From Actinoplanes sandaracinus (lineage in GTDB: Bacteria; Actinomycetota; Actinomycetes; Mycobacteriales; Micromonosporaceae), in NCBI RefSeq assembly GCF_030009775.1, contig NZ_JASCTH010000015.1, forward strand, positions 116,187 to 180,186: DNA of 64,000 bases, written 5' to 3'. Below, piece by piece: positions 32,374 to 36,408 of the stretch. How positions within the stretch are numbered: position 1 is the stretch's first letter; each line of letters opens with the position of its first letter. The notes under the pieces were generated by a model. That model was not told the origin of the DNA and did no database searches. It worked only from the letters and a program-made list of their open reading frames with translations. The position numbers and the translations under genes are program-made.

Positions 32374-32530
32374 ACCTGCCGCCGCCCCGCCACCTGCCGC
32401 TGACCCGCCACGTGACACCACCGCCTGCGGCTTGGCGCCTTCCGAATCGGTCGCGCTGGGGTGGGCGGCGGCGGGGCTGTTGACGTTGTGACTCGTGTCG
32501 CGGCTGGGATCGGCGGGTTCGAGGAGCCGC

Positions 32531-32536
32531 TAAGCT
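32531..32536 (+). promoter_or_regulatory. -10 hexamer for the leader peptide transcript
   Basis: TAAGCT, then GCCTGGC (7 bases), then GTG 32544; a leaderless start for the leader peptide. Confidence 0.55.
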
Positions 32537-32543
32537 GCCTGGC

Positions 32544-32585
32544 GTGAGTCCGTTCCCCGGCGTTCTACCGCCCCCGCGCTCCTGA
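32544..32585 (+). CDS. 13-residue PPP leader peptide upstream of DMT exporter
   Basis: The frame reads MSPFPGVLPPPRS and stops. The GTG start is seven bases after TAAGCT, so it is probably translated from a leaderless mRNA. Three consecutive prolines before Arg-Ser-stop form a known type of ribosome-slowing context. Codons 12-13 (CGC TCC) are part of RNA arm 1 of the downstream switch, so a paused ribosome would change which hairpins form. This small size and the codon/arm overlap are the basis for calling it a regulatory leader rather than a functional protein. Confidence 0.65.
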   Translation: MSPFPGVLPPPRS

Positions 32586-32682
32586 CCGGAGCGCCGCCTC
32601 GCCGATCGAGCCCTGCTTGATCGGCGGTTTCGCCTTGCGCTCCGTCGCCGCTCGTTGACGACTCACTTCCTTTCGGAGCGCA
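32576..32682 (+). promoter_or_regulatory. four-arm attenuator controlling the DMT exporter start
   Basis: Arm 1 GCGCTCC (32576-32582) pairs with arm 2 GGAGCGC (32588-32594). A 12-bp hairpin with a 3-base loop spans 32600-32626 (CGCCGATCGAGC arm), followed by GTTT. Arm 3 TGCGCTCCG (32636-32644) pairs with arm 4 CGGAGCGCA (32674-32682), which contains the exporter's GGAG ribosome site one base before GTG 32684. Arms 2 and 3 are also complementary. 1:2 plus 3:4 hides the ribosome site; 2:3 frees it. Confidence 0.7.
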
Positions 32683-32683
32683 C

Positions 32684-33865
32684 GTGTTCACATCGTTCTT
32701 CTCGTCTGCCTTCTCCTCCGCCGCGACCGGTGCCCGGCTGAGTCTTCTTCAGGTGTCCGCCGCCGGAATCCTGTGGGGCACCACCGGCGTCATCGTTCAG
32801 GTCGTCGCCGAGCGCACCGGGCTCGGCGCCCTGGCCATCGGGTTCTACCGGCTGGCCGTTGCCGCGGTGGTTCTGCTGCTCATCGGCCTTCCGGCCCGGC
32901 GCCGGATCTGGGCGGCGTTCCGTGCCGCACCCGTCGCGGTGACCACGGCGGGCGTCGGGCTCGCCGTCTACCAGGCGCTCTACTTCGTGGCCGTCCGGCT
33001 GGGCGGAGTCAGTATCGCGACCGTAGTCAGCCTGGGCATCGCGCCGGTGTTGCTGAGCGCCTGGGAGACCTTCCGCACCCGGCAGCGGCCGGGAACCGCC
33101 ACCCTCGCGGCTTCGGCCGCGGCGATCGCCGGGCTGATCCTGATCGCCGGGGCGACCGTCGAACCCGGCGCGACCACCGCCGCCGGTCTCGGGCTCCTCG
33201 CCGCCATCGGGTCGGGCATCGTCTACGCCGCGTCTACCGGGATCAGCCGGCACACCGCCCAGGGGGTGGAGCCGCTCACCCTCACCACCCTGTCGTGCGT
33301 CATCGGCGCGATCACGCTGCTGCCTCTGGCGGCCGCCGAGGGCCTGGCCTTCACCCCGGAGGCGGCTCCGGTGGCGCTGCTGATCTACGCGGGCGCGGTC
33401 ACCACCGCTCTGGCGTACGCGCTGTTCTACACCGGGCTCCGCCGCATCTCCGGCAGCGTCGCCGTGGTGGTCACCCTGCTCGAACCCCTCACCGCGGCGC
33501 TGCTCGCGGTGCTGCTGATCGACGAGCCGCTCGGTCTGACCACCGTCGTCGGCGGTGGGCTGCTGCTGGGTGCGGTCGCAGCCCTGTACCTGGGCGCCGG
33601 CGACACCGCCAGGGACACAGCGCCGCTTCCCATCACTACTCCAGTCCGCCCGGCCAACCCGGCGGACGCCACCCATCCGGCGGAGGCCACCCACCCGGCG
33701 GAGGCCGCCGACGCGGCGCGCAACCAAACGTCCGCGGCAACGGCTCACCCGGCGGGCATCGGTGACCGGGCCGCCGGGCGGGAGCCCATCGACAAGGTCG
33801 GCGCGAAACCATCGGCGTCCACTGGCCAAGGCGCTCCTGCCGGGAGTGCCCCGACAACGGTGTAG
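32684..33865 (+). CDS. EamA/DMT-family exporter with long hydrophilic tail
   Basis: Drug/metabolite transporter with ten predicted helices in two EamA repeats: AAGILWGTTGVIVQVVAERTG...IGFYRLAVAA and LFYTGLRRISGSVAVVVTLLEPLTAALLAVLLIDEPL. 393 residues against about 300 for the family; the excess is a C-terminal cytoplasmic tail (from about residue 305) with small ATHPAE repeats and low complexity. The GTG at 32684 has GGAG five bases upstream, inside the attenuator stem. The regulation suggests induction by something that stalls ribosomes or limits an amino acid. Substrate unknown. Confidence 0.92.
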   Translation: MFTSFFSSAFSSAATGARLSLLQVSAAGILWGTTGVIVQVVAERTGLGALAIGFYRLAVAAVVLLLIGLPARRRIWAAFRAAPVAVTTAGVGLAVYQALYFVAVRLGGVSIATVVSLGIAPVLLSAWETFRTRQRPGTATLAASAAAIAGLILIAGATVEPGATTAAGLGLLAAIGSGIVYAASTGISRHTAQGVEPLTLTTLSCVIGAITLLPLAAAEGLAFTPEAAPVALLIYAGAVTTALAYALFYTGLRRISGSVAVVVTLLEPLTAALLAVLLIDEPLGLTTVVGGGLLLGAVAALYLGAGDTARDTAPLPITTPVRPANPADATHPAEATHPAEAADAARNQTSAATAHPAGIGDRAAGREPIDKVGAKPSASTGQGAPAGSAPTTV

Positions 33866-34435: not shown

Positions 34436-35722
34436 GTGGTGAGCCTGCGGAACGGGACGTCGCCCGAGCAGGTGTACACCTGGGCCCGGGAGCATCCGTG
34501 GCTGGCGGACGCGCTGCTCGCGGCGGTCCTCTCGGCACTCCTGCTGCCGACGTCGGTGATGATGATCGCGCCGTCGGTCCCGCCCGGGTGGTGGGTGATG
34601 CTGTGCGCCAGCCTGCTGGCGGTGCACGCCGCGCTGTTCGTGCGCCGGGTCCGTCCGGTCGTCTCGTTCACCGTGGTCAGCGCCGCGCTGGCGGTTCAGA
34701 CGCTGGCGCCGCTGTCCGCGTACCGGTACGACTCGGCATTTCTGGCCTCGGCCGCCGCGTTCCCGGTCGTGCTGTACTCGCTCTGCGCCTACGGTCCGCC
34801 CTGGTGCCGCGGGCTTGGGGTGGCCGTGGGTGTTACCGGGTCGGTTCTGCTGATGGTGCGGGCGGTCCGGGTCTTCCCGTCCGACACGGCCACGACGCCG
34901 GGCGGCCCGGCGGCCTGGGCGTTCCTGCTGGGGGTGCTCCTGGTGGTGGTGCTCGCCTCGTGGGGCCTGGCCCGGCTGCGACAGGTCCGGCTCGCGTACT
35001 TCGACCTGCTGGAGGAGCGGGCGCGGCGGGCCGAGGCGGACCGGGAGGGGCGGGCCCGGGTCACCGTCATCCAGGAGCGCGCACGCATCGCCCGGGAGAT
35101 GCACGACATCGTGGCCCACTCACTGGCCGTGATCGTGACCCAGGCCCAGGGCGGGGAGCTGGTCGCGGCGAAGTCGCCGGAGCGCGCGGCCATCGCACTG
35201 GGCACGATCGCCACGACCGGCCGGCTCGCACTGGCCGACATGCGGCGGCTGCTAGGCGTGCTGCGGGCCGAGGGCCCAGGGTCGACCGGCTCGGGGCCGC
35301 AGCCCACCCTCGCCGACCTGCCGCAGTTGCTGGACCAGGTCCGGGCCGCGGGCCTGACCGTGCGCCGCACCGACGACGGGACACCGAGACCGGTCGGGTC
35401 GGCCACCGAGCTGACGGCGTACCGGCTGGTGCAGGAGAGCCTGACGAATACGCTGCGCCACGCCGGGTCCAGCGCCTGCGCCGACCTGCGCCTGACCTGG
35501 AGTGCCCACGAGCTGATCGTGACCGTCGGTGACGACGGGCGCGGCGCGACGACACCCGGCAACACTGCCGGGCATGGGCTGATCGGCATGCGGGAACGGG
35601 TCGCGGTTCTCGACGGCAAGCTCACCGCCGGCCCGAAGCCCGGCGGCGGCTTCGAGGTACGCGCGGTGTTACCCACGGCGTATATCGCGGCCGCCGACGG
35701 GGCGAACGGGCAGCAGCGATGA
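34436..35722 (+). CDS. NarL-type sensor histidine kinase (HisKA_3)
   Basis: Membrane histidine kinase, 428 residues. About five or six N-terminal helices (residues 25-180) with short loops and no large sensor domain, so it may sense membrane or small-molecule signals. The dimerisation/phospho-acceptor helix is ARIAREMHDIVAHSLAVIV, with the acceptor His near residue 222. The HATPase has ELTAYRLVQESLTNTLRHAG (N box) and VGDDGRG (G1). Its stop overlaps the response regulator start as ATGA. Cargo of the Tn402-like element; a leaderless start at GTG 34436 is supported by TAGGCT. Confidence 0.95.
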   Translation: MVSLRNGTSPEQVYTWAREHPWLADALLAAVLSALLLPTSVMMIAPSVPPGWWVMLCASLLAVHAALFVRRVRPVVSFTVVSAALAVQTLAPLSAYRYDSAFLASAAAFPVVLYSLCAYGPPWCRGLGVAVGVTGSVLLMVRAVRVFPSDTATTPGGPAAWAFLLGVLLVVVLASWGLARLRQVRLAYFDLLEERARRAEADREGRARVTVIQERARIAREMHDIVAHSLAVIVTQAQGGELVAAKSPERAAIALGTIATTGRLALADMRRLLGVLRAEGPGSTGSGPQPTLADLPQLLDQVRAAGLTVRRTDDGTPRPVGSATELTAYRLVQESLTNTLRHAGSSACADLRLTWSAHELIVTVGDDGRGATTPGNTAGHGLIGMRERVAVLDGKLTAGPKPGGGFEVRAVLPTAYIAAADGANGQQR

Positions 35723-36408
35723 TCCGGGTCTTCATCGTGGACGACCAGGCCCTGATCCGGGCCGGCCTGGCGATGGTGGTCGAGGCGCAGGAGGACATGG
35801 TCGTCGCCGGCGAGGCCGGTGACGGCGCACAGGCCCTTGACCGGTTGGCCGGAAGCACCGCGGACGTGGTTCTGATGGACATCCGGATGCCCGTACTGGA
35901 CGGGGTGGAGGCCACCCAGCGGTTGACCGCCAGGCCGGCGGCACCGAAGGTGCTAGTGCTGACGACGTTCGACCTGGACGAGTACGCGTTCGCCGCCCTA
36001 CGCGCCGGAGCGAGCGGGTTCCTGCTCAAGGACGCCCTCGCCGGGGAACTGTGCGCGGCGATCCGCACCGTGTACCGAGGCGACGCGGTGCTTGCCCCGC
36101 CGACCACCCGGCGCCTGGTCGACCACATGCTGGCCGACCTGCCGGTACCCGAGCTCGGCCCCGACCCGCTCGCCCCGCTGACTGGACGGGAGCGGGAGGT
36201 GCTGCTGGCGATGGCGCGCGGGGAGTCCAACACGGAGATCGCTGGCCGGCTGTACCTGTCCGAGGCCACCGTCAAGACCCATGTCGGGCGGGTGCTGGCG
36301 AAACTGGGGCTCCGCGGCCGGGTCCAGGCGGTGATCTGGGCGTACGAGCGGCGCCTGATCCGCCCCGGCCATCCGCCGGAACAGCCGTCATCCTCGAGGA
36401 TGACCTGA
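35719..36408 (+). CDS. NarL/LuxR-family response regulator
   Basis: A 229-residue regulator. The receiver domain has IRVFIVDDQALIRAGL (acidic pair), phospho-acceptor Asp in VVLMDIRMPVLDG, and Thr/Lys switch positions in LVLTTFDLDEY and GFLLKDA. The C-terminal LuxR HTH is GREREVLLAMARGESNTEIAGRLYLSEATVKTHVGRVLAKLGL. Coupled to the kinase by ATGA, so they form one two-component system. Likely targets are the two downstream cargo genes. Confidence 0.97.
   Translation: MIRVFIVDDQALIRAGLAMVVEAQEDMVVAGEAGDGAQALDRLAGSTADVVLMDIRMPVLDGVEATQRLTARPAAPKVLVLTTFDLDEYAFAALRAGASGFLLKDALAGELCAAIRTVYRGDAVLAPPTTRRLVDHMLADLPVPELGPDPLAPLTGREREVLLAMARGESNTEIAGRLYLSEATVKTHVGRVLAKLGLRGRVQAVIWAYERRLIRPGHPPEQPSSSRMT

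Follow-up and report, generated by a model that had tools for sequence, protein, structure and literature searches.

The ermC/ErmCL translational attenuator, as set out in the available part of PMC10219788, shares with the element described here a short leader ORF, four RNA arms and a Shine–Dalgarno (SD) sequence that 3:4 pairing can hide; in ermC a ribosome pause lets 2:3 form, as is proposed for the present element. The RAPP/RGPP arrest peptides (ApdA, ApcA, ApdP and their S. lividans relatives) have in common with its proposed mechanism, within the accessible text of PMC12992588, an arrest at Pro-Pro near the C-terminus, a regulated gene downstream and actinobacteria among the hosts. In the leaderless amino-acid attenuators trpL, leuL, ilvL and thrL, a leaderless short ORF is likewise followed by competing hairpins. 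According to the sections of PMC8079986 available, most such leaders have codons for the very amino acid under regulation, and the genes that follow serve biosynthesis or import or encode tRNA ligases.

The window, a stretch of 64,000 nucleotides from Actinoplanes sandaracinus (assembly GCF_030009775.1, contig NZ_JASCTH010000015.1, positions 116,187 to 180,186) in a genome of 10.2 Mb, contains an element of similar design ahead of a transporter gene. Its features, in window coordinates, are the following:

32531..32536, + strand: TAAGCT, a TANNNT hexamer and, from sequence, the putative −10-like box for leaderless transcription
32544..32585, + strand: leader ORF, MSPFPGVLPPPRS-stop, 13 sense codons with a GTG start, leaderless-looking
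32568..32576, + strand: three Pro codons in a row, CCG CCC CCG, in the leader
32571-32573, + strand: codon of Pro(−4), the middle Pro and fourth-last residue of the peptide, which a paused ribosome is proposed to hold in its P site
32576..32582, + strand: arm 1, GCGCTCC, the last base of Pro11 plus codons Arg12-Ser13; 1:2 helix by RNAalifold
32587..32594, + strand: arm 2, CGGAGCGC, starting 1 nt past the stop codon; pairs with arm 3
32600-32611 with 32615-32626, + strand: inner hairpin of 12 bp between arms 2 and 3, from the fold, with one G-U
32637..32644, + strand: arm 3, GCGCTCCG, partner of arm 2 or arm 4
32660..32666, + strand: GACTCAC, complement of the leader start GTGAGTC (32544-32550) in the fold; role doubtful
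32674..32681, + strand: arm 4, CGGAGCGC, including the exporter SD, GGAG (32675-32678)
32684..33865, + strand: gene for an EamA-family (DMT) transporter of 393 aa, beginning with GTG, PF00892 at E = 2.3e-30

The leader codons read GTG AGT CCG TTC CCC GGC GTT CTA CCG CCC CCG CGC TCC TGA (32544-32585). A first-pass annotation of this DNA had proposed a probably leaderless frame of 13 codons in front of a DMT exporter. The frame was confirmed, and the TAAGCT box ends 7 nt upstream of the leader GTG, the spacing expected of a leaderless start. A TANNNT box ends 5–7 nt 5′ of the start codon in all 70 curated elements. No promoter was found by a sigma-70 two-hexamer scan. The annotation had built arm 1 from the last sense codons of the leader and had seen a 12-bp hairpin inside the 2:3 loop, and both were recovered. 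It had also put the exporter's GGAG in arm 4, where it is indeed found, and one base from the GTG, which was corrected to a spacing of 5 nt between GGAG and the GTG at 32684. The exporter also matches TIGR00950 with E = 1.3e-31, yet under the curated cut-off of that model. In the window, the 1:2, 3:4 and 2:3 helices are all able to form, and the fold of 32543-32700 has a z score of −4.0, with none of 200 dinucleotide shuffles as low. No Rfam 15 family matched the window above its gathering cut-off. Two regulatory genes on the same strand, at 34436-36408, follow the exporter; one encodes a histidine kinase with HisKA_3 and DUF7134, the other a response regulator of LuxR type.

The element is read, with good confidence, as an erm-like translational attenuator run by a Pro-Pro arrest peptide. 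Its promoter, the pause with its position and the switch in vivo are what we infer. Transcription would begin at or beside the leader GTG, and ribosomes would read the 13-codon leaderless frame. By default, when a ribosome finishes the leader or never loads, helices 1:2 and 3:4 would pair and the exporter SD would be hidden. Counted from the start of its P-site codon, a ribosome extends about 15 nt to its leading edge. In the induced state, Pro(−4) would occupy the P site of a ribosome paused at Pro-Pro, and the leading edge would fall where the stop codon ends. This pause would cover arm 1 and leave free arm 2, which starts at the stop-codon end; arm 2 could then capture arm 3, and arm 4 with its SD would be released. 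A ribosome parked at the stop codon would mask arm 2 too. Across the family of elements, the longest 2:3 complement begins −1 to +2 nt from the stop-codon end in 108 of 109 cases.

Homologous exporters were collected by protein search from 67 genomes in the genus. The best 30 EamA matches, 51–100% identical and including the window's own, all have upstream a short frame that ends in Pro-Pro-Arg-X-stop. The peptides themselves differ (VSPFPGVLPPPRS, VSLNLGNLGPPRS, VSRYSGVLSPPRS, VHSFPAILPPPRS and others). The frame was absent at five further EamA loci of the genus with 42–48% identity. An exact pattern for the leader end plus hairpin was found in 65 of 354 genomes of the family (the window's own included), belonging to 2 of 44 genera, and the reversed pattern gave no match in the same 354 genomes. 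Each of the 65 pattern matches is followed by an EamA match that starts 41–231 nt downstream.

Searches with models extended this set. Model R1 returned nine matches in a class sample of 394 genomes, namely the window, two true new loci and six false ones; in 22 genomes of one family it gave eight places, three true and five false, which added a third new locus. These three new loci combine a MHRxFPITPPPR(S/P) leader with an EamA gene. With model R2, 236 genomes of a class sample of 394 matched at E ≤ 0.1, mostly weakly, and the counts cover 30 loci: the window, three known, 12 true and 14 false. Four of the false loci were discarded as the start of a larger protein whose first residues are MRLF(A/V)AVLPPP. 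Model R3, built without base pairs, gave 41 places in family f19 (200 genomes) and 25 in genus g70 (199 genomes), of which 30 and 25 were examined. A leader with an EamA gene was present in 40 of these 55 loci (28/30 and 12/25), seven of the 40 being previously known. The remainder comprised L196, with a leader and no EamA match, and 14 loci without a leader by rule, among them L157, which has an EamA gene. Two leader frames had escaped the rule, that of L195 and that of L207, which is degenerate.

In total, 130 leader–EamA loci (117 + 10 + 3) were assembled, and these belong to five families (f1, f2, f19, f21, f22) and 24 genera by label; the class-A genus g23 may, as a guess, be Micromonospora. 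L196 with its missing EamA match and seven duplicate loci were left aside, and the peptide counts leave out the frame-shifted L144. The leader frame of L144 is shifted by a one-base difference from L146, the elements being otherwise similar. Neither of two plasmid-borne EamA relatives has a leader. One of them, L225 on plasmid p3211-1 of Streptomyces sp. 3211, is a class-C-like EamA (66% identical) 3′ of an IS3-family transposase gene, and the 500 nt read there held no Pro-Pro leader.

The leader peptides fall into eight classes, exemplified by MRPFLGVLPPPRS, MHRLFPITPPPRS, MNTYWHVVLPPLCA, MAYWTAQLGPPRS and MRRSIISPPRS; the names A–H are our own grouping, and class E is mixed. Among the matches listed for the genus, at least 31 genomes have a class-A exporter (the 30 loci and L059) and at least 11 others a class-H exporter. 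The class-A genomes show, again among the matches listed, no second match better than E = 2e-17, and the class-H matches have E values of at most 1e-24. It looks as though one type of exporter replaces the other. In L032 and L034 the hairpin motif CGCTCCTGACGGAGCG is repeated after the leader, and the distance from leader to gene is 248 nt compared with the usual ~100. A second class-A form occurs at five g23 loci (L072, L083, L085, L087, L097), with leaders MSCRPGLLPPPRS, MRLFRGVLPPPRS and MRPFQGVLPPPRS and a leader–gene distance of 182–186 nt compared with ~110.

Proline occupies position −4, inside Pro-Pro, in 77 of 77 distinct peptides, which are 11–16 residues long. The 117 leaders correspond to 64 distinct peptides, in which −4 is Pro without exception (64/64), −3 is Pro (54), Leu (9) or Val (1), and −5 is Pro (50), Gly (7), Ser (6) or Thr (1). 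As the recognition rules for most loci demanded Pro-Pro or Pro-Leu, most loci cannot by themselves prove the constancy of Pro-Pro. Loci were therefore also taken free of these rules. In the first check, on 17 further loci of the genus chosen by EamA homology and six leaderless EamA loci, a boxed Pro-Pro frame was present in 10 of the 11 loci of one EamA sub-clade and in none of the 12 others. Those 10 leaders form a new class (MRRxxISPPRS-like) that lies outside all models. The eleventh locus of the sub-clade, L224, has a similar frame that an apparent short duplication has shifted relative to L221, the two elements being otherwise similar; the shifted frames of L144 and L224 may be either real variants or assembly errors. 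The second check covered 27 relatives of a class-C exporter in 150 genomes of genus g70, where the leader was present in 12 and absent in 15. It occurred in 9 of 10 loci at 72–100% identity (the query's own included) and in 3 of 17 at 42–51%. Apart from the shifted L224, none of the 50 loci of the two checks contained a boxed frame of 9–20 codons that lacked Pro-Pro near its end. The homology-chosen loci agree with the invariant Pro(−4). The Pro-Pro(-Pro) stretch, in which the first-pass annotation had seen the pause, is the likely pause site.

Three loci of genus g70 (L196, L207, L195) have class-C-like leader regions with no EamA match after them, and their exporter has apparently been lost or truncated. 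Pro-Pro has turned into Leu-Pro in L196 and L207 (VVLLPLCA) and is intact in L195. This suggests, from three loci only, that loss of the exporter is followed by decay of Pro-Pro.

Entropy was compared between codon positions for the distinct leaders of the commonest length in five groups: class A of Actinoplanes, class A of g23, and classes B, C and D (n = 23, 23, 12, 18 and 6). In all five, third codon positions were more variable than first and second ones (column-permutation p = 0.0004, 0.025, 0.0002, 0.022 and 0/5000, respectively), and since the third positions vary most, the leader peptide is under selection. The residues kept as amino acids 5′ of Pro-Pro are, class by class, FPIT, YWHVVL, AYWTAQLG and GVL. 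On a tree of 109 EamA proteins, built by a quick method with class A thinned and with several long branches, the leader class changes 10 times compared with 65.6 times in shuffles; exporter sub-clades therefore keep their own peptide class. The first-pass annotation was too narrow in its tie to a single peptide, as several quite different peptides share only the Pro-Pro end. Tentatively, the leaders could be Pro-Pro arrest peptides that sense ligands and form a modular family across the class, with one leader per EamA sub-clade, in which the variable N-terminal half would sense the exported compound in the tunnel and the constant Pro-Pro end would halt the ribosome before a constant four-arm switch.

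The element might instead act as a general sensor of EF-P or of translation stress, the exporter being induced by low EF-P activity or by any slow-down at Pro-Pro. Pro-Pro is indeed the classical EF-P-dependent pause, but such a sensor would leave unexplained why each EamA sub-clade has its own peptide, and class C has Pro-Pro-Leu, which to our knowledge is no strong EF-P site; this reading is rather unlikely. A depsipeptide from Streptomyces rimosus has been described that stalls ribosomes with Pro codons in the P and A sites, which speaks for it, and nothing in the available part of that report ties the compound to the leader–EamA element (PMC13372681).

Proline starvation was also weighed, in which a shortage of prolyl-tRNA would stall ribosomes at the two or three Pro codons and the preceding residues would be irrelevant. 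It would account for the Pro at −4 in every distinct peptide, and leaderless amino-acid attenuators are described in actinobacteria in the accessible part of PMC8079986. Nevertheless, this explanation is distinctly unlikely. The residues before Pro-Pro are kept while third positions vary, which codon hunger does not need, several classes have only two Pro codons, and a transporter induced by hunger would make little sense unless it were an importer. Because residues 5′ of Pro-Pro are conserved within each class, arrest by the nascent chain is favored over codon hunger. As the signal, a plain shortage of prolyl-tRNA seems less likely than a ribosome-targeting compound or a metabolite that is sensed by way of the nascent peptide.

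The pairing of the arms was assessed by covariation. Unaided, RNAalifold gave for 41 elements a structure made up of helices 1:2 and 3:4 and the inner hairpin. In that structure 95.4% of cells are paired, and 33 cells show two-sided changes compared with 10.7 in shuffles, none of 500 shuffles being as high. The inner hairpin accounts for the bulk of the two-sided changes, which occur at three of its seven counted pairs, and two of five covariation measures were not above shuffles for this structure (66/500 and 99/500 as high). Helix 3:4 alone is paired in 99.1% of cells. For the alternative helix 2:3, counted on A1, the paired share of cells is also 99.1%, a value reached by 9 of 500 shuffles; only two cells within A1 show two-sided changes, and one slid register of 2:3 scores slightly higher there in covariation (0.130 vs 0.126). 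In L031 and L033, arms 2, 3 and 4 have changed jointly. In L020, L022 and L023 the Ser codon is altered, and arm 1 has moved to the Pro-Pro-Arg codons with 1:2 retained.

The sequences of arm 2 and arm 3 differ between classes: CGGAGCGC:GCGCTCCG in A, AGCGGGGCG:CGTCCCGCT in B, CGGGCGCAC:GTGCGCCCG in C, CGGGGCGCG:CGCGCCCCG in D and AGCGGGACG:CGTCCCGCT in H. Arms were therefore swapped between classes in 61 representatives of 109 elements. A foreign arm 2 worsened 2:3 in 51 of 61 representatives (−20.4 vs −17.3 kcal/mol, p = 1.1e-9) and a foreign SD arm worsened 3:4 in 48 of 61 (p = 1.6e-6), both p values being too small because the representatives are related. Against dinucleotide shuffles, the excess of 2:3 and 3:4 was modest singly (15/44 and 12/44 at 0.05) and clear together. 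The overlap of both helices on a stretch of arm 3 was dropped as evidence that they exclude each other: such a shared stretch is present in 34 of 44 elements, out of 85, and 29.8 are expected from shuffles, which is not informative. Four arms with 1:2, 3:4 and 2:3 options, as put forward in the first-pass annotation, were supported. Conservation in relatives, which had been named there as the check, was found for both the leader codons and the complementarity of the arms.

The long-range pairing GTGAGTC:GACTCAC is kept in most Actinoplanes elements. It was rejected as a part of the mechanism, its covariation score lying under every shuffle (500/500 as high). In a second genus it showed no excess (own −9.1 vs shuffled −8.8 kcal/mol).

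The exposure of the SD was modeled with equilibrium folds, which take no account of co-transcriptional order, for 109 elements; as in the swap tests, the 18 of 127 elements without a recognized SD (16 of class C, one of B and one of H) were left out. The mean modeled exposure was 0.15 with the ribosome paused at Pro(−4), compared with 0.06 for free RNA, 0.05 for a pause four codons before Pro(−4) and 0.07 for a ribosome at the stop codon. For the window element the values, in the same order, were 0.20, 0.00, 0.00 and 0.00. Relative to free RNA, a pause at Pro(−4) gave a gain above 0.05 in 53 of the 109 elements and a drop in 11. In classes E, F and G the modeled pause gave no SD gain, and in class C, where 6 of 22 leaders were modeled, the response was unspecific (free 0.30, Pro(−4) 0.49, stop 0.49). 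The direction of the predicted release fits the proposed mechanism, weakly, its size being small and the SD staying mostly paired (mean 0.15 unpaired). As bare RNA, the window element has a lowest-energy fold with 2:3 and not 3:4, which would require a kinetic off state. The modeled SD exposure of the bare RNA was nonetheless near 0.

The first-pass annotation had suggested that the inner hairpin could terminate transcription, and this suggestion was not upheld: a scan that requires a T-run found no terminator-like site in 32400-32750. Control is therefore probably translational. Transcription attenuation through the inner hairpin or another stem is very unlikely, even though that hairpin is strong and high-GC actinobacteria can terminate without a U-run. 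Besides the empty scan, the helix that pairs with the SD ends beside the start codon and leaves no room for a U-run. Attenuators without a U-run are noted in the part of PMC8079986 available. A constitutive cis-RNA structure with the short frame as a chance by-product is hardly credible, for although arm 1 dictates the C-terminal Arg-Ser or Cys-Ala, the excess of third-position variation lies outside arm 1 in five groups, the TANNNT box keeps a fixed distance and the leader classes track EamA clades.

Compared with the RAPP/RGPP peptides, as far as PMC12992588 was accessible, RAPP or RGPP occurs in none of the 77 peptides of the present family. With 11–16 residues, these are too short for the localization signals reported there. 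The downstream genes given in the same accessible text include no EamA or other transporter, and the present peptides are not named in it. Of the marks of an amino-acid attenuator acting on transcription, no T-run terminator was found in 32400-32750; the two or three Pro codons are present here in a peptide that is conserved beyond them. None of the present peptides appeared in the rows compared of the attenuator table in PMC8079986. In the open-licence papers searched, none of 11 peptide strings was found, nor any report joining a leader peptide, EamA and ribosome stalling. From what the sequences and these texts contain, the peptides appear to be undescribed, the attenuation logic itself being already known.

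If the proposal is true, the elements would make up a large family of switches based on arrest peptides, one that is easily missed, its frames being leaderless and 11–16 codons long. Several peptide classes joined to one RNA logic would offer a natural series for the study of conditional Pro-Pro stalling by nascent chains. They would also give a handle on the physiological signal and the substrate of EamA exporters that are otherwise anonymous, in genera with many antibiotic producers. A related principle was reportedly described by Mangano et al. in 2022, in an orthosomycin-sensing leader ORF with a context-specific ribosome pause and a resistance gene downstream. The erm-type features present in the sequence are a conserved, coding-like leader ORF and the mutually exclusive helices 1:2 + 3:4 and 2:3, with the SD in arm 4. 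Unlike ErmCL, the leader looks leaderless and its proposed pause is at Pro-Pro; the gene downstream encodes an EamA transporter (PF00892) and not an erm rRNA methylase. The element would work like an erm-type attenuator, and it is not filed as a member because its downstream gene is no erm methylase.
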